Assembly: GCA_002255955.1 (NCBI GenBank)
Contig: NKIM01000009.1
Coordinates: 1 to 64,000 of the forward strand
Direction of reading: 5' to 3'
Origin: Burkholderiales bacterium PBB2
Lineage (GTDB): Bacteria; Pseudomonadota; Gammaproteobacteria; Burkholderiales; Burkholderiaceae_C
DNA length: 64,000 nt
Shown here: positions 36,582 to 45,464 of the stretch, piece by piece
Position numbering within the stretch: position 1 is the stretch's first letter
Layout: each line of letters opens with the position of its first letter
The notes under the pieces: model-generated
Seen by the model: the letters and a program-made list of their open reading frames with translations, nothing else
Database searches by the model: none
Told to the model about the DNA's origin: nothing
Position numbers and translations under genes: made by a program

Positions 36582-36947
36582 CTACTGTTGGAATGTTTTC
36601 AGCACCTTCTTCAAGCGCTTTCGCCCATCGCTGTTTGTTTCGCGATAGACCTTGAGGGCAAGCGCCAGGAACTGCTGCTCTCCAGGTGACAGTCCAGTTG
36701 GTTCACGCTCTACATCAAGCCAACCTGACTCCTTGCCGCAATGCTGTTCAATCTGCCGCGCCAGTTTGTCACCGATGGGGCGTACGCCACTTTTGGCCAT
36801 CGACCATGTTGCGCCACTCATCTCGACTTGTTTAGCCCAGGTGGATTCAAGCCCCTTGGGCGGATCGCCTGCGGCGATGCGTTCTTCCGCAAAAGTCTGG
36901 AAGAGCGCGATGGCGTTGAGTCGGCGGAATGTGGTGATGCTGGACAC
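36582..36947 (-). CDS. Phage-repressor-like HTH protein
   Basis: A 121-residue protein. The segment STWAKQVEMSGATWSMAKSG then IGDKLARQIEQHCGKESGWLD is typical of small XRE-like proteins in betaproteobacterial prophages and islands. The C-terminal half (LSPGEQQFLALALKVYRE) is helical. A symmetric site lies 22 bases upstream of its start, fitting autoregulation. It may be the master switch of the island. Confidence 0.6.
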   Translation of the reverse strand: MSSITTFRRLNAIALFQTFAEERIAAGDPPKGLESTWAKQVEMSGATWSMAKSGVRPIGDKLARQIEQHCGKESGWLDVEREPTGLSPGEQQFLALALKVYRETNSDGRKRLKKVLKTFQQ

Positions 36948-36968
36948 GGCTGGTGTTGTTAAAACACT

Positions 36969-36987
36969 TCACATGCATTCTATGTGA
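36969..36987. promoter_or_regulatory. Inverted-repeat operator upstream of the HTH gene
   Basis: TCACAT-N7-ATGTGA, followed after four bases by another ATGTG half-site. It sits between the HTH gene (minus strand) and a plus-strand promoter toward the tRNA array. Binding by the adjacent repressor-like protein is inferred. Confidence 0.5.
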
Positions 36988-36996
36988 TCGAATGTG

Positions 36997-37025
36997 TTGA
37001 CGGACTCGTGAACACTCTTCACAAT
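36997..37025 (+). promoter_or_regulatory. Sigma70-type promoter facing the tRNA array
   Basis: TTGACG (-35), 17-base spacer, CACAAT (-10), 10 bases right of the operator. It points toward the tRNA array. It is predicted by eye only. Confidence 0.45.
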
Positions 37026-37220
37026 TCTTCTATTCGTTGATTCACCCCAACCCGCCAGATCTCATCATGCTCCGCACCGTCTCCATCGCCAACGCAACAC
37101 GACCCATGTCGGTCGAGATGGCTTTGTGCGTCGCTGCGGGTCGCCATGAGTTCGCGATGCCGCTCGCATTGAGCCTGCCGCGGCATGATCGATTTGAGGG
37201 TGACTCGCCGTTACCGGGAG

Positions 37221-37242
37221 GAACTTCAGCCTGCTGAAGTTC
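37221..37242. repeat. Perfect hairpin GAACTTCAG / CTGAAGTTC
   Basis: 9-bp arms with a 4-base CCTG loop, preceded by GGGAG. It lies 33 bases before a rho-independent terminator. The pair could form the body of a small RNA. Confidence 0.6.
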
Positions 37243-37274
37243 TTACATTCCAGGGATCCATCTCCGATCCCCTG

Positions 37275-37303
37275 AAGCCCGGTCTCCTGCAGGAACCGGG
37301 CTT
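37275..37303 (+). terminator. Rho-independent terminator before the tRNA array
   Basis: 9-bp stem AAGCCCGGT / ACCGGGCTT, 11-base loop, then TTTTTGTTT. It would end transcription from the promoter at 36997 unless antitermination occurs, so tRNA genes may have their own promoter. Confidence 0.85.
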
Positions 37304-37472
37304 TTTGTTTGGCTCTTGCGAATCGGATCGATGCCCTCTCGGGTGTGCCCGTGCACAAGCACCGGCCAGCTAGGTGTGCATGTGTGCCAAGCACGTTCTG
37401 CAGACGGAGCCGGCATGCAGCGATCTCGGCAACCATGTCGAGATCGCGTGCGGACACAGCCGAGAGTGCATG

Positions 37473-37549
37473 GCCTCGTTAGCTCAGCGGAGCAGAGCGC
37501 CGGTCTACGAAACCGGAGGCCGGAGGTTCGAATCCTCCACGAGGCGCCA
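37473..37549 (+). tRNA. tRNA-Arg (ACG), first gene of the array
   Basis: Acceptor GCCTCGT/ACGAGGC, anticodon stem CCGGT/ACCGG with loop CTACGAA (anticodon ACG), T-arm GGAGG TTCGAAT CCTCC, discriminator G and encoded CCA. All arms pair well. ACG tRNA-Arg is the species cut by colicin D in E. coli. Confidence 0.93.
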
Positions 37550-37561
37550 GTTTTCATTTCT

Positions 37562-37636
37562 GTCCCGTTGGACTTCCGGTGAGGTCCTCGGCCCTTCAAG
37601 CCGAAGAGGCGGGTTCAACTCCCGCACGGGATGCCA
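37562..37636 (+). tRNA. tRNA-Glu (UUC) with C33
   Basis: Acceptor GTCCCGT/ACGGGAT, D-stem GACT/GGTC, anticodon stem TCGGC/GCCGA, T-stem GCGGG/CCCGC, discriminator G and encoded CCA. The anticodon loop reads CCTTCAA, giving anticodon TTC but a C at position 33, where U is nearly invariant. The cloverleaf is otherwise sound. Confidence 0.75.
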
Positions 37637-37737
37637 AACCCAAGCCTGTCGTCGAGCTCTCGTTTCGATAGGCGCAAACCGGCCGCAAAGATTGGGCGGC
37701 GTCGGAACCCGTCACCGACAACCCTTGGGAGCACGAC

Positions 37738-37814
37738 CCGTGTGTGGCGCAAGTGGAAAGCGCAACTGCTTTGGGAGCAGAGGGTTGCAGGTTCGAGTCC
37801 TGCTGCACGGACCA
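37738..37814 (+). tRNA. tRNA-Pro (UGG)
   Basis: Acceptor CCGTGTG/TGCACGG (two wobble pairs), D-stem GCGC/GCGC, anticodon loop TTTGGGA (anticodon TGG with G37 as usual for Pro), T-arm GCAGG TTCGAGT CCTGC, discriminator A, encoded CCA. The outermost anticodon-stem pair is A-A. Confidence 0.88.
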
Positions 37815-37823
37815 GGAATACAT

Positions 37824-37899
37824 GTCGCCATAGCTCATCTGGAAGAGCGCCGGTCTGTCGAACCGGAGGTCGCGGGGTCAGGACCCGCTGGCGGCGCCA
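37824..37899 (+). tRNA. tRNA-Asp (GUC) with abnormal T-loop
   Basis: Acceptor GTCGCCA/TGGCGGC, D-stem GCTC/GAGC, anticodon stem CCGGT/ACCGG with loop CTGTCGA (anticodon GTC), T-stem GCGGG/CCCGC, discriminator G (normal for Asp), encoded CCA. The T-loop is GTCAGGA, so both T54 and A58, which normally form the T-loop reverse-Hoogsteen pair, are G. Confidence 0.8.
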
Positions 37900-37938
37900 A
37901 GTGAAACAAACGCAATGTGCCGAAACGTGTGTTTGGGT

Positions 37939-38011
37939 GTGGCCGTCGCCTAGCGGCCAAAGGCTCAAGGTTGTGACCCTTGCATCGCCGGTTCGAATCC
38001 GGCCGGTCACC
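37939..38011 (+). tRNA. tRNA-His (GUG) lacking an encoded G-1
   Basis: Acceptor GTGGCCG/CGGTCAC, D-stem GCCT/AGGC, anticodon stem CAAGG/CCTTG with loop TTGTGAC (anticodon GTG), T-arm GCCGG TTCGAAT CCGGC, discriminator C as in tRNA-His. The base before position 1 is T, not the G-1 that bacterial HisRS normally needs. The 3' end continues CCCCA, so CCA is offset by one base. Confidence 0.8.
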
Positions 38012-38057
38012 CCCAAGCACATGCCCTGTCGGAAGCTAAGTCAGAAGGAGAACTACT

Positions 38058-38263
38058 GTGAAGAAGATCAAGAGCGAAGCCAGCTTTTGAGGTCATGAGC
38101 AAGCGCCGCAAGGGCTTCCCCTCTGAGACTCAAGTCAAGCGAGGAGATCGCGTTGTTCGCGGCAACAAGGAGCTTCTCGAAAAGCTCGGTCGCAATGACC
38201 CGTGCCCTTGCGGATCAGGGAGGACGTTTCAAGCGCTGCTGCATGCATAGCGGCTGGTTTTGA
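38058..38263 (+). pseudogene. Frameshifted SEC-C motif protein
   Basis: Three frames together encode one small protein. A GTG at 38058 with AAGGAG upstream opens [10 protein letters not shown] and stops at 38088-38090. An ATG at 38095 opens [18 protein letters not shown] and runs to [12 protein letters not shown], the start of a zinc-binding SEC-C motif. The rest of the motif, [11 protein letters not shown], follows in the +1 frame to a stop at 38261-38263. Removing one base near 38085 and one near 38224 gives an intact protein of about 68 residues. It lies inside the tRNA array. Confidence 0.65.
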
Positions 38264-38320
38264 CGGCGTGAACCGCCATCACTACCAGCGTTGAGCAGCG
38301 CTGCCGCCCATTGGTCAGTC

Positions 38321-38388
38321 GTGGCGTAGTTCTGCTGGAAGAGCACTAAGCCTTGAATCCGCAGGGCGCAGCTTGGAGCCTCGCCGCC
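38321..38388 (+). other. Degenerate tRNA-like sequence
   Basis: GTGGCG can pair with CGCCGC across 68 bases, and a normal D-arm follows (GTTC/GAGC around TGCTGGAA). A CCTTGAA stretch lies where the anticodon loop should be, but anticodon and T-stems do not pair. It is probably a decayed array member. Confidence 0.3.
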
Positions 38389-38435
38389 TTCGCCGTTGAA
38401 TTTCAGTCGTGCCCAGTCGCAGAAAGGAGGACGCC

Positions 38436-38996
38436 ATGCACGATGTATTGCAGTTGGACATCACCGGCCAGCCCCAGGCCTGGATCTCGGTCGAGCAGGC
38501 GGCCGTCCATGTGGCCTCCCGCTCCGTGGCCTGGTCGCTCGGTGATACGCCGCTGGCCGTCCTGCGCGGCGGCATGAACGTCCACTCCGGCCTTCAGTCG
38601 AGGCTTGAAGTTCCAGCCATCCTGGCGTTGAGCGGCAGTTCGCGCTTGAACCTCTTCGAGCAAGAGCCGGGCTTCAACAAGCTCAAGCTGATCCGGCGCG
38701 ACCGACAGACCTGTGCCTACTGTGGCGAAGCGCATGACCTGCGCGAGCTCACGGTCGACCACATCCTGCCGGCCTCGCGTGGCGGCCCTCTCAGCTGGAT
38801 GAACACGGTCGCCGCCTGCCGCGCCTGCAATTCGCGCAAGGCCGACCGCACGCCGGAGGAGGCCAGGATGCCGCTGCTGTTCACGCCCTACGTGCCCAGC
38901 CGCTTCGAGGACTTCCTGCTCAAGGGCAGGCGGATTCGTGCGGACGTGCATGAGTGGCTGGCCGCACGGCTGCCAAAAGAATCGCGCCTGAGTTGA
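38436..38996 (+). CDS. HNH endonuclease
   Basis: A 186-residue protein. The C-terminal half is an HNH domain with zinc pairs CAYC (Cys93, Cys96) and CRAC (Cys128, Cys131), catalytic Asp108-His109 in LTVDHILPASRGG, and Asn123. An N-terminal domain of about 75 residues (LQLDITGQPQAWISVEQAA) has no known role. AAAGGAGG gives a very strong ribosome-binding site before ATG 38436. It sits between tRNA-like genes, so it may act on nucleic acid within this module or be a homing-type nuclease. Confidence 0.88.
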   Translation: MHDVLQLDITGQPQAWISVEQAAVHVASRSVAWSLGDTPLAVLRGGMNVHSGLQSRLEVPAILALSGSSRLNLFEQEPGFNKLKLIRRDRQTCAYCGEAHDLRELTVDHILPASRGGPLSWMNTVAACRACNSRKADRTPEEARMPLLFTPYVPSRFEDFLLKGRRIRADVHEWLAARLPKESRLS

Positions 38997-39104
38997 TCCA
39001 CGGGGTCGGCCCAGGTGCCAACAGATCTGCCTTGGAAGGCAGGGCTCACAGGTCGGGGGTACCACCCCACCGGTGCGCTGTGGCCGGGCCCGTCCCGTCG
39101 CTGC
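38997..39104 (+). other. Stretch with tRNA-like fragments
   Basis: Contains a perfect CTGCC / GGCAG stem around TTGGAA, like a shortened anticodon arm, and GGGG-TACCA-CCCC, like a decayed T-arm. No acceptor or D-arm pairing was found. Confidence 0.25.
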
Positions 39105-39137
39105 GGCGCATGCCGCTCTGCTGAAAGAGGCCGATAC

Positions 39138-39192
39138 GGTGAAGCACGGTTGTCCCGCAAGGGTCCGGGTTCGACTCCCGGTTTCGCCACCA
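39138..39192 (+). other. Mini tRNA-like element (acceptor plus T-arm)
   Basis: GGTGAAG pairs fully with TTTCGCC (one G-U and one G-T wobble), enclosing a perfect T-arm CCGGG TTCGACT CCCGG, discriminator A and encoded CCA, but only 18 bases replace the D and anticodon arms. An alternative 88-base class II fold from 39105 pairs worse. Confidence 0.4.
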
Positions 39193-39264
39193 CTGGATAG
39201 CTCAGTCGGGTAGAGCAACGGATTTGGAATCCGTGTGTCGTGGGTTCGACTCCCACTCCACAAA
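39191..39264 (+). tRNA. tRNA-like gene, anticodon UGG, decayed acceptor
   Basis: D-arm GCTC/GAGC, perfect anticodon stem ACGGA/TCCGT with loop TTTGGAA (anticodon TGG by position), and T-arm GTGGG TTCGACT CCCAC are intact. Only four acceptor pairs form (TGGA/TCCA), CCA is not encoded, and the 5' end overlaps the CCA of the preceding element. A37 is unusual for tRNA-Pro; it may derive from tRNA-Gln. Confidence 0.5.
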
Positions 39265-39519
39265 TGGCCTGTCACGCCAGTGAAAAACGGTCGAAAGACC
39301 ACCCAGCCGAACGTGCCGGTCTGCCTTCGGGTTTGAACGGCACCAGCGCGGCCACCTGTGCTTCGGGCACGCGGGGTCTGCGTCCACGGCCAGTCCGAGG
39401 TATGTCCAGGGAGGGCATGTCGACGACGCACCGTGGTACCCAGCCCCTGGCATCCGAGGTCCGTGTCCGCGTTGTAACGGCATCCTATTTGAAACACACG
39501 CTGCAACAAGGAGAACACC

Positions 39520-40656
39520 ATGACGATCAAGCGTGTCAATGTGAAGAAGAACGAGCGCGGCCTGCTGCTGCGCAATGGCGACTTCGAGCGTGTGCTGCAA
39601 CCCGGCACACACTGGCTCCTGTCTGGACTGGATCGGCTTCAGGTCGAACTGGTCGCCATCGGAGCTCCGGCTTTCGTGCACCCGCTGACTGACTACTTGC
39701 TGGCCAAGGAGCCGGCGGTGGTCGAGACCGAGTTCGTTCGTGTCGAGTTGAATGCGACGCAGGTCGGCCTGCGCAGCGAAAACGGTGTGCTGGTCGAGCT
39801 GCTGCCGCCTGAAACCCGCCGGCTGTACTGGAAGGGCTTGGTGGATGTGCAGGTTGAGGTGATCGACCTGGCCAGCACCACAGAACTGTCGCCTGCGCTC
39901 ACTGCCCGCCTGCTGCAGACTCAGCTGCGTCCGCGCAGCATCATCGGCTTGGCTGGTGTGTTGCAGGTGGTCGTGCCGGAACACGGCGCGGGCATTCTGT
40001 GGGTCGACGGCAAGATCGAGCGCTTGCTCGGTGCGGGTTCGTTCGCCTTCTGGAAGTTCAACCGCAGTGTGAACGTGGAGCTGGTGGACCTGCGCTTGCA
40101 GTCCGTTGAAGTCACGGGCCAGGAAATCCTGACCCGAGACAAAGTGGCGCTGCGACTCAATCTCTCGGCCACCTGGCGCTATTCGGACGTGCTCAGCGCC
40201 TACAAGGCGCTGGCCAAGCCGGCCGAGCACCTGTACCGCGAACTGCAACTCGGCCTACGCGCCGCGGTGGGTACGCGCTCGCTCGATGAGCTGCTCGAGA
40301 ACAAGAGCGTCATCGACGAAGTCGTGACCGCGCAGGTGAAGGACAAGCTCGCCGCTCTCGGGCTCGAGCTGACCAGCGTTGGCGTCAAGGACATCGTGCT
40401 GCCGGGCGAGATGAAGACCATCCTCGCTCAGGTGGTGGAGGCCGGGAAAGCGGCCGAAGCCAACGTGATCCGCCGCCGCGAGGAAACCGCTGCAACGCGC
40501 TCGCTGCTGAACACCGCCAAGGTGATGGAGGACAACCCCGTCGCTCTGCGCCTCAAGGAACTGGAAACCCTGGAGCGTGTGGCGGAACGCATTGACAAGA
40601 TCTCCGTCTTCGGAGGTCTGGATCAGGTGCTCAACGGGCTCGTGAAGCTGCGCTGA
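39520..40656 (+). CDS. SPFH/Band-7 (slipin) family protein
   Basis: A 378-residue protein. Its core is an SPFH domain (VNVELVDLRLQSVEVTGQEILTRDKVALRLNLSATWRY), followed by DVLSAYKALAKPAEHLYREL and the helical GLELTSVGVKDIVLPGEMK region. The C-terminus is a long helix (EAGKAAEANVIRRREETAATRS). An extra N-terminal part repeats an SPFH-like strand pattern (NERGLLLRNGDFERVLQPG). No transmembrane helix is visible, unlike classical slipins. AAGGAG precedes the ATG. It lies 66 bases before rtcB; SPFH proteins with RtcB are a known association in RNA-repair operons. Confidence 0.85.
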   Translation: MTIKRVNVKKNERGLLLRNGDFERVLQPGTHWLLSGLDRLQVELVAIGAPAFVHPLTDYLLAKEPAVVETEFVRVELNATQVGLRSENGVLVELLPPETRRLYWKGLVDVQVEVIDLASTTELSPALTARLLQTQLRPRSIIGLAGVLQVVVPEHGAGILWVDGKIERLLGAGSFAFWKFNRSVNVELVDLRLQSVEVTGQEILTRDKVALRLNLSATWRYSDVLSAYKALAKPAEHLYRELQLGLRAAVGTRSLDELLENKSVIDEVVTAQVKDKLAALGLELTSVGVKDIVLPGEMKTILAQVVEAGKAAEANVIRRREETAATRSLLNTAKVMEDNPVALRLKELETLERVAERIDKISVFGGLDQVLNGLVKLR

Positions 40657-40722
40657 TCGCCAGCCCCGGCTGGACGTAACTTGAATCTCCTCCGGCCGGG
40701 GCTCTACATTGGAAACAAGATC

Positions 40723-41949
40723 ATGGAACAAGAACAAACTCAACATATCCACGAGGACGTCCCCGGCGGCGTTCCGCTGAAGATGTGGACGCGTGGCGTG
40801 CCTATCGAGCCCGAAGCGAAGCGCCAACTCACCAACGCGGCACGCCTGCCCATCGTTTTCAAGCACGTGGCTGCGATGCCGGACGTGCACTTCGGCATCG
40901 GGGCCACCGTAGGCTCGGTCATCCCGACCATCAAGGCAATCATCCCGGCGGCTGTGGGCGTGGACATCGGCTGCGGCATGATGGCCTGCAAGACCACGTT
41001 GCGCGCTGAGGACCTGCCAGACAACCTCGCCCCACTGCGCGCGGCGATTGAACGTGCGGTGCCGCATGGACGCGCGCCAGGCAACCGTGACCCGGGAGCC
41101 TGGCAGAAGCCGCCAGGTTCAGTGGACACGGCCTGGTCGCAGCTGGAGCCCGAGTTCAAGGAACTCTGCCGCAGCTATCCCAAGCTGGAGAAAACCAACC
41201 ACCACAAGCATCTGGGCACGCTCGGAAGCGGCAATCACTTCATCGAGGTCTGCCTCGACGAAGAAGGCGCGGTCTGGTTCATGCTGCACTCGGGCTCGCG
41301 AGGCGTAGGCAATGCCATCGGCACCATGTTCATCGAACTGGCCAAGAAGGACGCGATGCGCCACCAGGCCAATCTGCCGGATCGCGACCTGGCCTACTTT
41401 GAGGAAGGCAGCCGCTACTTCGGCGACTACGTGCGCGCCGTGAGCTGGGCACAGAAGTACGCCGCGATGAACCGCGAGGTCATGATGCGCCGCGTGATCG
41501 AAGCAGCGAAGACCGTGCTGCACAAGAACTTCCAGAGCCACATCGAGGCGGTGAACTGCCACCACAACTATGTGCAACGCGAGCAGCACTTTGGCGAGGA
41601 CGTATTCGTCACCCGCAAGGGCGCCGTGAGTGCCAAGGCCGGCCAACTGGGGATCATCCCAGGCAGCATGGGCGCACGCAGCTTCATCGTGCGTGGCAAG
41701 GGCAATCCGGAGTCTTTCGAATCCTGCTCACATGGCGCCGGCCGTGTCATGAGCCGTGGAGATGCCAAACGCAGCTTCACCTTGGCCGACCATCGTGCCG
41801 CCACTGAAGGTGTGGAATGCCGCAAGGACAAGGACGTGCTTGACGAGACGCCTGCGGCCTACAAGGACATCGACGCGGTCATGGCCGCACAGGCAGACCT
41901 GGTCGACGTGGTGCACACGCTGAAGCAGGTGGTTTGTGTGAAGGGCTGA
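40723..41949 (+). CDS. rtcB: RtcB RNA ligase
   Basis: A 408-residue RNA ligase that joins 2',3'-cyclic phosphate (or 3'-phosphate) ends to 5'-OH ends using GTP and Mn2+, repairing or splicing tRNA. Key residues are present: Asp81 and Cys84 in VGVDIGCG (metal), GTLGSGNHFIEV, LHSGSRG, and the guanylylated His337 in SCSHGAGR. The length equals that of E. coli RtcB. ATG 40723 gives the usual start; the TTG at 40681 would add 14 unlikely residues. No rtcA or rtcR is in the window. Its place behind a tRNA array and SPFH gene suggests repair of cleaved tRNA. Confidence 0.96.
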   Translation: MEQEQTQHIHEDVPGGVPLKMWTRGVPIEPEAKRQLTNAARLPIVFKHVAAMPDVHFGIGATVGSVIPTIKAIIPAAVGVDIGCGMMACKTTLRAEDLPDNLAPLRAAIERAVPHGRAPGNRDPGAWQKPPGSVDTAWSQLEPEFKELCRSYPKLEKTNHHKHLGTLGSGNHFIEVCLDEEGAVWFMLHSGSRGVGNAIGTMFIELAKKDAMRHQANLPDRDLAYFEEGSRYFGDYVRAVSWAQKYAAMNREVMMRRVIEAAKTVLHKNFQSHIEAVNCHHNYVQREQHFGEDVFVTRKGAVSAKAGQLGIIPGSMGARSFIVRGKGNPESFESCSHGAGRVMSRGDAKRSFTLADHRAATEGVECRKDKDVLDETPAAYKDIDAVMAAQADLVDVVHTLKQVVCVKG

Positions 41950-42561: not shown

Positions 42562-42990
42562 ATGCAAAGAGTTCTTTTCCGTTTGAGGGCATGGATGGTT
42601 CATTGGAATTCATGCGGCTGCCGTGCCTTCCCCGTTCTGCGCATTGCTTTGCTGGTGCTTGGCTCAAGCTGGTTAGCAGCGTGCACATCGATCCATGTAG
42701 AAGGTGCCGGTGCAGTCACCAATCGATGGGCCTTTGCACCTATTGCGATCCATCCTGCAGAAGGAAGCTCCGTCACAGTTATTAGGTCAAAGGGGTTTGG
42801 ATGGGTGCCTCATGGAGACGGCGTCACGCTTGGCTACCACAAAGAGCTACGCGTCATGGTGTCAAACCCAGATGCCTGTCAAGTGTTCATTCTGGAGCCT
42901 GATTCGAGCACGAAAGACTTTGAGCGGCTCATTGAAGTTCTGAAGGCGGCGGGCATGAGCCTCTGCAGCATTACAAAGGAGGCGAAATGA
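42562..42990 (+). CDS. Small lipoprotein of unknown function
   Basis: A 142-residue protein with a lipoprotein signal (RIALLVLGSSWLAACTS, lipobox LAAC near residue 41). The mature part begins IHVEGAGAVTNRWAFAPI and is otherwise unfamiliar. The long N-terminus suggests the true start may be the ATG at 42595, which has GAGG upstream. It overlaps the next lipoprotein gene by 4 bases. Codon use is visibly less GC-rich than in the chromosome around it. Confidence 0.6.
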   Translation: MQRVLFRLRAWMVHWNSCGCRAFPVLRIALLVLGSSWLAACTSIHVEGAGAVTNRWAFAPIAIHPAEGSSVTVIRSKGFGWVPHGDGVTLGYHKELRVMVSNPDACQVFILEPDSSTKDFERLIEVLKAAGMSLCSITKEAK

Positions 42991-43877
42991 AAAACACTTT
43001 GCGCGTGATGATGCTCGGCTCAAGCATCTGTCTTTCCGGATGTGGGGCTCTACAGCAAGCTCCGCTCGTATACGCATCGAAGGTGTCTGTGGGCATCGAC
43101 GCCGCCGCGACGTCTACCGAAAGCCCTGGCTTCAGCATAAACGTGGGCTACAAGCAGGTGGACACGGCGTATGTTCCTGTTGCCGTAGCCAGGGATTGCA
43201 AGCCAGGCGCAGATCAACCCTGCAAGGATAAAGTTTTTGAAATTGTTCCCCTCAGTGGCAACAACGACATCATCGGCAAGACAAAGGTGTCGGAACAGGC
43301 GCTCGCAGATGCCAAGGCGACGATTGACCTTGCCTCAAAGGATGTCGAGCGCAGTCGCTCGAAGCTAGAGGAGGCGCAAGTTGATGCCACCGCGAAAAAC
43401 AAGGCACGTGACGTGGCCAAGAGTACCGCAGACACTGCGGCCGAAGCGGACAAGCCTGCGACTGCTGAATTAGCGAAGAAGGCTCAGAGCGCTGCCGAGA
43501 TTGCGCAAACAACTCTGGTGGGCGCACAGCGTGCGTTTGAAGCGGCGCAAACAAAGCTTGGAGAAGCCGGAACCGCCTATTCGAAACTGACATCGCCTCC
43601 TTCGCTAGACAGCACGAATCAGAGAAAAGATGCATTTTCTGTCTATGGAAGTTTTGATGGAAAGACCAAGAACACTGCTGGCAAGGAGAGTGTGTCCGTG
43701 GGGTTGGACCTTGGTCGGACTTTCTCAACAGGCGTTGCATCCCAGAATTTAACGGAGGGGGTTCGTAGTGCAGCATGTCTTGATTCGGCCGCACGAATTC
43801 TTGATAAGGCCGCAGACAAGGCGGATGCGGCGCTCCTCAAGTCCCTCGTAGCACTTTGCGAAGCCCGCGCTCGGTGA
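42987..43877 (+). CDS. Coiled-coil lipoprotein of unknown function
   Basis: A 296-residue protein with lipobox LSGC near residue 18. A strand-rich segment (KVSVGIDAAATSTESPGFSINVGYKQVDTAYVPVAVAR) is followed by an Ala/Lys/Glu-rich coiled coil (about residues 95-205) and a second strand-rich part (DAFSVYGSFDGKTK; ESVSVGLDLGRTFSTG). The two strand-rich halves could form one beta domain split by the coil. No family is recognised. It is translationally coupled to the preceding lipoprotein gene. Confidence 0.65.
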   Translation: MKNTLRVMMLGSSICLSGCGALQQAPLVYASKVSVGIDAAATSTESPGFSINVGYKQVDTAYVPVAVARDCKPGADQPCKDKVFEIVPLSGNNDIIGKTKVSEQALADAKATIDLASKDVERSRSKLEEAQVDATAKNKARDVAKSTADTAAEADKPATAELAKKAQSAAEIAQTTLVGAQRAFEAAQTKLGEAGTAYSKLTSPPSLDSTNQRKDAFSVYGSFDGKTKNTAGKESVSVGLDLGRTFSTGVASQNLTEGVRSAACLDSAARILDKAADKADAALLKSLVALCEARAR

Positions 43878-43901
43878 TCCTTGTCCCAAGGGGAGGTATA
43901 G

Positions 43902-44360
43902 ATGGCACGTATGTTGACTCAAAACTTCTCGCTGGACGAGTTCGTATTTAGTCAAACGGCTGCGCGCCTTGGCCTCGATAACACAGCTGACGTGACGGTG
44001 CTACGAAATCTGCAGCGTCTGGCTGGTACGCTTGAGGAGGTTCGCTCAAGACTTGGTGATGTCGCTATCCTTGTGAGCAGCGGCTACCGCTCGCCGGCGC
44101 TAAACAAGGCTGTTAAGGGTGCAAAGAATAGTGCTCATTTGAGCGGACTAGCAGTTGACTTCACTGCACCCCGTTTTGGCACAGTTCTTCAGACTGCTAA
44201 AGCTGTTGCGGCCAGCGATATCGCGTACGACCAAGTGATCTACGAGTTCGGTCGTTGGGTACACCTTGGCTTGGCGCCAGAAGGCGAAATTGTGCGACGT
44301 GAAAACTTGTCAATCATGGTCGCCGGACAGTATTTTAATGGCCTCAGGAATGTGGCTTGA
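43902..44360 (+). CDS. M15 family (phage-type) peptidoglycan peptidase
   Basis: A 152-residue protein. The M15 motifs are SSGYRSPALNKAVKG, then SAHLSGLAVDF with zinc ligands His79 and Asp86, then WVHLGL with His121. These match Peptidase_M15 endolysins and D-Ala-D-Ala carboxypeptidases of phage and islands. No signal peptide is seen, as for endolysins. GGGAGG precedes the ATG. It lies 24 bases after the coiled-coil lipoprotein gene. Confidence 0.85.
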   Translation: MARMLTQNFSLDEFVFSQTAARLGLDNTADVTVLRNLQRLAGTLEEVRSRLGDVAILVSSGYRSPALNKAVKGAKNSAHLSGLAVDFTAPRFGTVLQTAKAVAASDIAYDQVIYEFGRWVHLGLAPEGEIVRRENLSIMVAGQYFNGLRNVA

Positions 44361-44646
44361 AAGTTGTAACCGTGCCGTTTTGTCGGAATTTCTAGTGCCC
44401 TGGTGAGGTCGGCAATTGGGGGAAATCGCCAATAAATCGAAGGCTTGAGAGAACTTGCAACGATGTTTTTATGCACGCGGCGCCAATGAAGCGCGGTAGC
44501 CTCTGTCTCCCTGCAGCGTGTTAGCCTTTGTTATTGAAGTTCTATTGAAGATGGCGTTTCGTCGCGGAATATCATCGGCTGATGAGGACGCCACTGGCAC
44601 TGATACGGATCCGTTCTCCCTCTGACAGCGCCTTGAGAGAGGAAAT
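44361..44646. other. Intergenic region inside the five-gene block
   Basis: No gene or clear signal was found. It separates the lipoprotein/peptidase group from the two small genes to the right. Confidence 0.3.
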
Positions 44647-45015
44647 ATGTTCATGTCGACTGAATCATTTTTGTATTGTCGCAATGTCGCGGTTGTATTT
44701 CTTGTACTTGCTGTTGCGCCCGCAGCAGTGCTGAGCGCTGGCGAGGAATTGCCGAGTCTAATAGCAAAAAGGGATCTCTCAGTCCTCCAATCACCACGCA
44801 GAGGCCTCTTTTGCCAACACGGGGACGAGTTAGGAAAATTGGCCCGCGGCACCGATGTATCGCAGTACGAATCCATCACGAGCTATTGCGGCCTCGGGTA
44901 CAAAATTGAATATCTGAAATTCGAATTCAAAACAACTGATGGACGTGTATTAACAGCGTATGTTCGTCGCAAGGAGAACAACGGCTCAGACAGATTTGAC
45001 GTAAAGTCCAAGTAG
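44647..45015 (+). CDS. Small secreted protein of unknown function
   Basis: A 122-residue protein with a signal peptide (VAVVFLVLAVAPAAVLSAG). The mature part of about 88 residues has two cysteines (LFCQHG, SYCGLG) that could pair, and strand-rich YKIEYLKFEFKTTDGRVLTAYVRR. AGAGAGGAA precedes the ATG. It lies 8 bases before the next gene. No family is recognised. Confidence 0.6.
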   Translation: MFMSTESFLYCRNVAVVFLVLAVAPAAVLSAGEELPSLIAKRDLSVLQSPRRGLFCQHGDELGKLARGTDVSQYESITSYCGLGYKIEYLKFEFKTTDGRVLTAYVRRKENNGSDRFDVKSK

Positions 45016-45023
45016 GAGCTGGT

Positions 45024-45464
45024 ATGCATAGGCTTCAAGAACTTGTGGCCATATTTGCGTGCATGATTCCATTTATTGGGTGTTACTTTGTAGGCGTAGC
45101 AGTTAGATTGGGGCGGGAAAATCGGCAGGCGCCTGAGTCCGCGAGAATAGGATTCGGAATTCGAATAATTGGTGAAGCTTTTCCCGGCATGCTGGAGTCA
45201 GTAATCACGTTGGCTACTGTGTTCGGTGTCGTGTTTCAGCAGGCCTCATCTGAAGGCCCGCTGTTTCCGCTAATTGGGGCAGTGGCTTCAGCCGCGTTTC
45301 TTGCCTTTCGCGGCGGGTATACATATCTTGAGTCGCTGCTCACCCTTCCCAAAACTAATCCGCCGCCTGAGGAAAGGAGTGGGGCGCGTGGAGCCTGTCC
45401 GGCGGACCGCCTACGGCAGCCGCTGAATATCAGCGTTGACCGCGCTCTTTCGGGGCGCTGTTGA
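45024..45464 (+). CDS. Small membrane protein, possible holin-like
   Basis: A 146-residue protein with three hydrophobic segments (LVAIFACMIPFIGCYFVGVAV, ESVITLATVFGVVFQQ, LFPLIGAVASAAFLAFRGG) and a polar tail. AGGAG precedes the ATG. Size, topology and proximity to an M15 peptidase would fit a holin, but nothing more specific supports it. The last 35 residues (ERSGARGACPADRL) look unlike the rest and may be read-through into repeat sequence. Confidence 0.5.
   Translation: MHRLQELVAIFACMIPFIGCYFVGVAVRLGRENRQAPESARIGFGIRIIGEAFPGMLESVITLATVFGVVFQQASSEGPLFPLIGAVASAAFLAFRGGYTYLESLLTLPKTNPPPEERSGARGACPADRLRQPLNISVDRALSGRC

Follow-up and report, generated by a model that had tools for sequence, protein, structure and literature searches.

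What would switch on a short array of tRNA genes standing ahead of an RNA ligase gene, and what would the two do together? The question is raised by a locus of Burkholderiales bacterium PBB2, in a stretch of 64,000 nucleotides (contig NKIM01000009.1, positions 1 to 64,000; hereafter the window). Here, five tRNA genes (Arg-ACG, Glu-TTC, Pro-TGG, Asp-GTC, and His-GTG) span positions 37473–38013 and are followed on the same strand by genes for a SEC-C protein, an HNH endonuclease, an SPFH protein, and the RNA ligase RtcB. A sequence-only reading of 37473..41949 had described the array, HNH, SPFH, and an intact RtcB on one strand, and this was confirmed by tRNA and Pfam matches, with Cys84 and His337 of RtcB present if the ATG at 40723 is taken as the start (hand count in the translation). 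A divergent regulator gene, a leader open reading frame (ORF), and a terminator (36582–37464) fall to the left of that region. With these included, the island is probably an inducible module for tRNA replacement and RNA repair, predicted from its sequence to be switched on by ribosome stalling.

A leader laid out like an attenuator

The regulator, promoter, leader, and terminator (Table 1) are laid out in the order of a ribosome-mediated attenuator, the translation of the leader being predicted. The regulator, a protein of the helix-turn-helix (HTH) type termed XRE here, showed no Pfam match at E ≤ 1, and its alignment A1 (12 sequences) contained 29 invariant columns. All 30 non-duplicate XRE loci carried an intrinsic terminator as well as a palindrome of the type GTRAA-N5-TTYAC, or a close variant, 6–7 nt past TTGAC, and automatic picking yielded a leader ORF for 28 of them. 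The hairpin of the window terminator had a predicted energy of −19.9 kcal/mol, and the relatives have a terminator in the same place. A larger set of 87 XRE stretches yielded 74 leaders, including that of the window and some near-copies. The motif CCGGG, complementary to CCCGG of the terminator arm, was found in 67 of the 74 leaders within the final 42 nt (0.05 expected per 42 nt), exactly at −18 from the stop codon in 53 of these 67 and at −21 in the window. The base preceding CCGGG pairs with the base following CCCGG in 49 of the 67 loci, and in L053, with an altered terminator arm (CCCAGG), the leader has ACCTGG.

Table 1. Features of the island, with positions in the window
Feature	Position	Strand	Remarks
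HTH-type regulator gene (XRE), 121 aa	36582..36947	-	divergent from the array; PHROG "transcriptional repressor", E=1.3e-7
Promoter-like TTGACG and palindrome	36997..37025	+	palindrome GTGAACACTCTTCAC (37008-37022) over putative -10
Leader ORF, 56 codons	37067..37237	+	16 amino-acid types
CCGGG in leader, candidate antiterminator	37214..37218	+	complementary to terminator 5' arm
Intrinsic terminator	37274..37312	+	hairpin 37274-37304, T-rich tail
Structured RNA	37339..37464	+	24-sequence alignment
tRNA-Arg(ACG)	37473..37549	+	first in array
tRNA-Glu(TTC)	37562..37636	+
Conserved non-coding motif CAAACCGGCCGCAA..GGAACCCGTCACCG	37675..37724	+	inside array
tRNA-Pro(TGG)	37738..37814	+
tRNA-Asp(GTC)	37824..37899	+	T-loop unusual
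tRNA-His(GTG)	37939..38013	+
SEC-C gene	38095..38294	+	+1 sites TTT-CAA 38227-38232 and TTT-TGA-C 38258-38264
HNH endonuclease	38436..38996	+	HNH_5, E=9e-15; start codon picked by eye
Tandem tRNA-like RNA ahead of SPFH	39138..39300	+	parts 39138-39192, 39194-39260, 39289-39300
SPFH (Band 7) gene	39520..40656	+	PF01145, E=1.8e-30
RtcB RNA ligase	40723..41949	+	PF01139, E=2.6e-129, 432.6 bits; start codon picked by eye

The amino-acid composition of the leaders was compared with the tRNAs of the arrays behind them, the 74 leaders being cut to 44 at <60% identity, with the member having the most tRNAs retained from each group. All 20 amino acids were used by 12 of the 22 leaders followed by at least five array tRNAs, against 0.94 expected from their own lengths and the pooled composition, by 3 of 7 leaders with two to four array tRNAs, and by 1 of 15 with one or none. 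With at least 13 array tRNAs, nine of 11 leaders used all 20 and the remaining two used 19. When the same DNA was read in the other frames, 1, 1, 0, 3, and 0 of the 22 reached all 20. The match with the array was scored by amino acid, not by codon, in 25 leaders with at least three array tRNAs (Met excluded): the amino acid of a tRNA type present in the array was found in the leader in 278 of 279 cases, the sole exception being Asp in L212, and for types absent from the array it was also absent from the leader in 27 of 196 (Fisher p=2.4e-10; Mantel-Haenszel z=5.0). Trp was the clearest case, being present in 10/10 leaders with tRNA-Trp and in 4/15 without it. Permutation of the leaders gave a mean of 12.5 conflicts as compared with the one observed (length-binned p=0.00015), and the incomplete leaders alone gave p=0.005. 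In the redundant set of 56 leaders that precede one or more tRNAs, the amino acid was missing for 4/468 of the present types vs. 73/596 of the absent types. A by-product of leader length or composition is not supported as the source of this richness by the expectation, other-frame, and permutation controls. In the window, all four amino acids missing from the leader (K, Q, W, and Y) are among those for which the array has no tRNA.

RtcB is the single PF01139 match in the window genome (99.99% complete), in which no match to RtcR (PF06956), RtcA (PF01137), or TROVE/Rsr (PF05731) was found at E ≤ 0.001. Hence, of the components that define an RtcR-type RNA repair operon, this genome has RtcB and lacks RtcR, RtcA, and Rsr (Ro60), and a different sensor is plausible. 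The arrangement suggests the following course of events. The HTH repressor would hold the promoter, and transcripts that have started would traverse the leader ORF, which ends just ahead of the terminator. When all tRNAs are charged, the ribosome would get to the stop codon and mask CCGGG, and the terminator would form. Cleavage or lack of charging of some tRNA would make the ribosome stall earlier, leaving CCGGG free to pair with the terminator arm. RNA polymerase would then read through into the tRNA array, HNH, SPFH, and RtcB; the new tRNAs would restore decoding, while RtcB, from its known chemistry, would be expected to reseal the broken ones. Gene order, conservation, leader composition, and the leader–array match are features of the sequences themselves. 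A role of spare tRNAs plus a ligase against tRNA loss, as proposed in the sequence-only reading, fits the leader and array data.

Several observations weigh against this interpretation. The terminator was not found in 11 of the 87 XRE stretches (four being low-scoring paralogues), two more had no usable leader, and the palindrome pattern was unmatched in 7 of the 76 stretches having a terminator. The distance of 17–44 nt from leader stop codon to terminator in the 74 leaders is partly by construction, as the leader picker favored stops ∼31 nt ahead of the terminator, and four leaders had their start codons assigned manually. CCGGG was missing from 7 of the 74 leaders, and the covarying position was mismatched in 18 of 67 loci. 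The evidence for the antiterminator is mixed: its register is conserved and there is partial covariation, yet judged by duplex energy the candidate showed zero excess over shuffles, the best leader segment pairing with the terminator arm no better than shuffled leaders (mean z 0.06). The set of 44 leaders was filtered by identity (<60%), which is not a phylogenetic correction, and the leader tests ignore shared descent. The window itself has an incomplete leader and a small array.

A SEC-C gene with two +1 sites

The sequence between the array and the HNH gene had earlier been taken for a SEC-C remnant. Relatives collected by tblastn (20 distinct sequences) did not support a pseudogene or remnant, as they shared the frame changes and showed third-position bias. 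In all 20, the zero frame ends early and the motif resumes in the +1 frame after TTT-CA[AG]; a second +1 site, TTT or CTT followed by TGA-C or CGA-C, was present in 18 of the 20, and L144 needs none. Counted by codon position (1/2/3), differences numbered 1137/875/3140 ahead of the first site, 327/343/641 in the +1-frame part that separates the two sites, and 304/167/565 past the second one. All three parts look coding, since the third-position bias holds in three successive frames. Most of the 20 sequences align with a first residue other than Met. The gene thus shows a conserved site with coding selection on both sides, the criterion of programmed +1 frameshifting, and its product is predicted. 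The +1 site of prfB (RF2) is of the CTT/TTT-TGA-C type. The SEC-C sites resemble it in type and in the +1 direction, whereas the SEC-C gene has two sites and lies within a tRNA island. If correct, this would be an unusual case of bacterial programmed +1 frameshifting, with two sites in ∼65 codons.

The two sites may respond to the same stress as the leader. We lean slightly toward the view that the leader, which draws on all 20 amino acids and is matched in content to the array tRNAs, acts as a global sensor of tRNA integrity for replacement tRNAs and a ligase, with SEC-C as a second, hungry-codon sensor. In larger relatives, as many as 29 tRNAs, covering most isotypes, follow the same kind of leader, and in relatives with full-size islands the leader could sense a shortage of nearly any tRNA. 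To our knowledge, attenuators sense one or a few amino acids and control one biosynthetic operon. An attenuator covering all 20 would, if it works as proposed, constitute a general alarm for tRNA loss, and tRNA arrays would gain a testable trigger and a purpose. Among the papers listed in the literature searches (mostly open-access, preprints excluded), none was seen that described a leader using all 20 amino acids, leader control of a tRNA array, or frameshifting in a SEC-C gene.

The island in relatives and alternative readings

The window island fits the qualitative description of a tRNA array unit with HNH, having dense, same-strand, and redundant tRNAs and an embedded HNH gene, though with five clear tRNAs only. 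The anticodons of all five tRNAs recur among the 41 other tRNA genes of the genome that were compared, the identity to the copies with the same anticodon being 65–79%. RtcB matches, remote paralogues counted, were found in 82 of 299 family genomes, and 60 RtcB places were fetched with up to 10 kb upstream, a few ended by contig ends. Sixteen of the 60 stretches carried 3–23 same-strand tRNAs upstream of RtcB, largely in a shared order (the tRNA-like unit ahead of SPFH is included where ARAGORN calls one), and an HNH match was present in 16/16, one of them partial. Two architectures were seen: in the first, RtcR is followed by Rsr or SPFH and RtcB; in the second, a divergent XRE gene stands before the array, HNH, SPFH, and RtcB; hybrids exist. 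XRE lay within the stretch in 15 of 17 array loci (the window counted), that of L068 being elsewhere on its contig, and some loci had XRE and RtcB with zero array tRNAs. The closest named relative among the best 80 of 586 was Mitsuaria sp. WAJ17, with an RtcB 93% identical. The sequence-only reading had made its case depend on a conserved linkage of array and rtcB, and the array, HNH, SPFH, and RtcB did recur together; the family is conserved, and the window island, with its five tRNAs, is one of its small members.

The linkage to RtcB is nevertheless incomplete, and it bears on an alternative in which the array is counter-defense or mobile-element cargo of the phage or plasmid type, travelling with HNH and having RtcB as an occasional neighbor. 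HNH homologues adjoin many tRNAs in 9/10 plasmid or phage stretches fetched. High-scoring XRE places (≥137 bits) numbered 66, in 58 of 399 family genomes (manual count), and RtcB lay within ∼10 kb of ∼37 of the 66 (manual tally, several stretches being cut), two of these RtcB proteins being divergent (58% and 33%). Among 41 stretches fetched from XRE matches, HNH was found in 23, RtcB in 12, and SPFH in 6. Three of four same-genus genomes had no RtcB match and the fourth had a remote one only; at E ≤ 1e-15, XRE was matched in one of 369 class genomes, namely that of the window. RtcB is a frequent partner of the array and not a fixed part of it, because arrays are also found with no RtcB in the stretch, as in the plasmid stretches examined. 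The cargo explanation is compatible with the leader–array match but leaves it unexplained, and it is a rival for the origin of the island more than for its function; as an account in place of the stall-induced module it is unlikely, although it survives best among the alternatives.

Decay of the island into a relic that is functionless now in this genome would account for the short array, the incomplete leader, the unusual T-loop of tRNA-Asp, and the lack of a boxA-like match in the window (loose pattern). Part of the array may indeed be decaying, because this T-loop deviates from the usual sequence. However, RtcB, SPFH, HNH, the regulator, the terminator, and both frameshift sites are intact, and the leader still covers all five array tRNAs, which makes a functionless relic improbable.

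The leader ORF might instead encode a real small protein, with the terminator ending its mRNA and the array driven by a putative downstream promoter. Terminators right behind ORFs are common, and many leaders end alike (PGEGSA type). Against this, differences between close leaders were free of codon-position bias (149/161/165 in 26 pairs), as predicted for leaders in which composition counts rather than the peptide; peptides <60% identical retain composition, not sequence; leader amino acids track the array tRNAs; and the CCGGG register accounts for the shared ending too. We therefore regard a small protein as quite improbable. Least probable is the aim at nucleases of the colicin D and E5 type that the sequence-only reading had emphasized: the Arg-ACG, Asp-GTC, and His-GTG tRNAs are present, but the five species look like part of a general set, because arrays behind the same kind of leader in the relatives span most isotypes.

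Comparison with known systems and further features

Published systems were compared with the stall-induced module from excerpts of the papers cited. The nearest published regulation, by analogy, is that of Pseudomonas aeruginosa armZ (PA5471), which is under attenuation through the leader peptide PA5471.1 and is induced when ribosomes stall or the CCA-adding enzyme is lost (PMC12057347, PMC13041342), a precedent for leader attenuation responding to a tRNA defect. As in armZ, which is RtcB-like, an RtcB gene stands behind a leader ORF and a terminator in the island; unlike the island, ArmZ acts on the repressor MexZ, and the excerpts do not mention a tRNA array. The nearest published gene set, again by analogy, is the regulon of TrcR in Anabaena PCC 7120, which represses the trn-operon tRNA array as well as the rtcB, HNH, and slipin genes, the array being induced by translation-targeting antibiotics (PMC10272220). 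There, the genes are scattered, the regulator is a ribbon-helix-helix protein, and the excerpts mention no leader attenuator. The Salmonella rtcR / rsr-yrlBA-rtcBA system expresses RtcB upon tRNA damage and, like the island, combines RtcB with a tRNA-like RNA (PMC7790460); it senses tRNA halves via RtcR, which the window genome lacks together with RtcA and TROVE. In Mycobacterium, tRNA array units contain redundant, divergent tRNAs and an embedded HNH gene, an XRE gene is found in most of one group, and an antidefense role has been proposed (PMC5966550, PMC12803027). One of these papers, on M. avium, terms the biological role of tRNA arrays unknown. By word search of the texts available, RtcB and slipin are absent from both. 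In P. aeruginosa PA14, the gene of the SPFH protein PaFlo8 adjoins rtcA, rtcB, and rtcR (PMC13086221). An SPFH gene is thus near rtcB in both, the PaFlo8 locus being RtcR-type, and the text available nowhere uses the word tRNA.

Two structured RNAs flank the array and the HNH gene, and neither reached an Rfam family other than tRNA. The alignment of the RNA at 37339–37464, whose window copy had no Rfam match, gave 26 consensus pairs, 11 of them changed on both sides. A hand-made pattern recovered its type from many XRE loci (74 distinct matches, including some reverse-strand echoes), and similar sequences are also present in L064 and L071, which carry RtcR. The tandem RNA ahead of SPFH consists of a mini-tRNA-like part with a CCA end, a D-anticodon-T part, and a hairpin (in the order of Table 1). 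Of the further tRNA-like units that had been claimed, the one standing at 39194–39260 (+) scored 55 bits as tRNA in Rfam, its outer three acceptor positions being unmatched. Alignment A2 (n=20) gave 14 pairs, six changed on both sides, and 34 of 44 SPFH stretches, RtcR-SPFH loci among these, had both end motifs before the SPFH gene. An assignment to YrlA (RF02553) was rejected, the score being 30.5 bits vs. a gathering score of 69, with two ordinary neighboring tRNAs scoring 25.7; the relatives L049 and L068 do carry YrlA (81.1 and 79.1 bits).

Integration at tRNA-Arg(CCG) 35262 was considered and rejected, as its 3′ end has no second copy in the window (≤3 mismatches allowed). The left flank gene was found in 7/7 genomes and the right flank gene in 1/7, the window genome only; therefore no empty site was defined. 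To the right of RtcB (42562–45464) lie a Peptidase M15 endolysin-like gene (phrog_894) and small unknown genes. The window HNH protein matches PF14279 and PF01844.

Some further features were noted among the relatives. A plasmid array of Variovorax RA8 (L215, 7659–8720) holds an annotated "RNA ligase family protein," and L175 and L177 have an XRE-HNH cassette 3′ of a separate RtcR-Rsr-RtcB operon. A motif similar to that at 37675–37724 precedes RtcB in relatives that have no array tRNAs (judged by eye). A second XRE-like paralogue with a longer frame (G000:C12:20777-21040), alongside which neither an array tRNA nor a terminator was found, has similar-scoring matches in many family genomes, and in L157 the XRE frame continues into an AbrB-like C-terminal stretch (by eye). 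A boxA-like sequence was found 3′ of the terminator in 17 of the 44 representatives (loose pattern); between the terminator and the first tRNA, it resembles that of rRNA operons and reads TGCTCTTTAACAA in L212 and L248, CGCTCTTTAACAA in L034 and L043, and TGCTCTTTAAAAA in L289.

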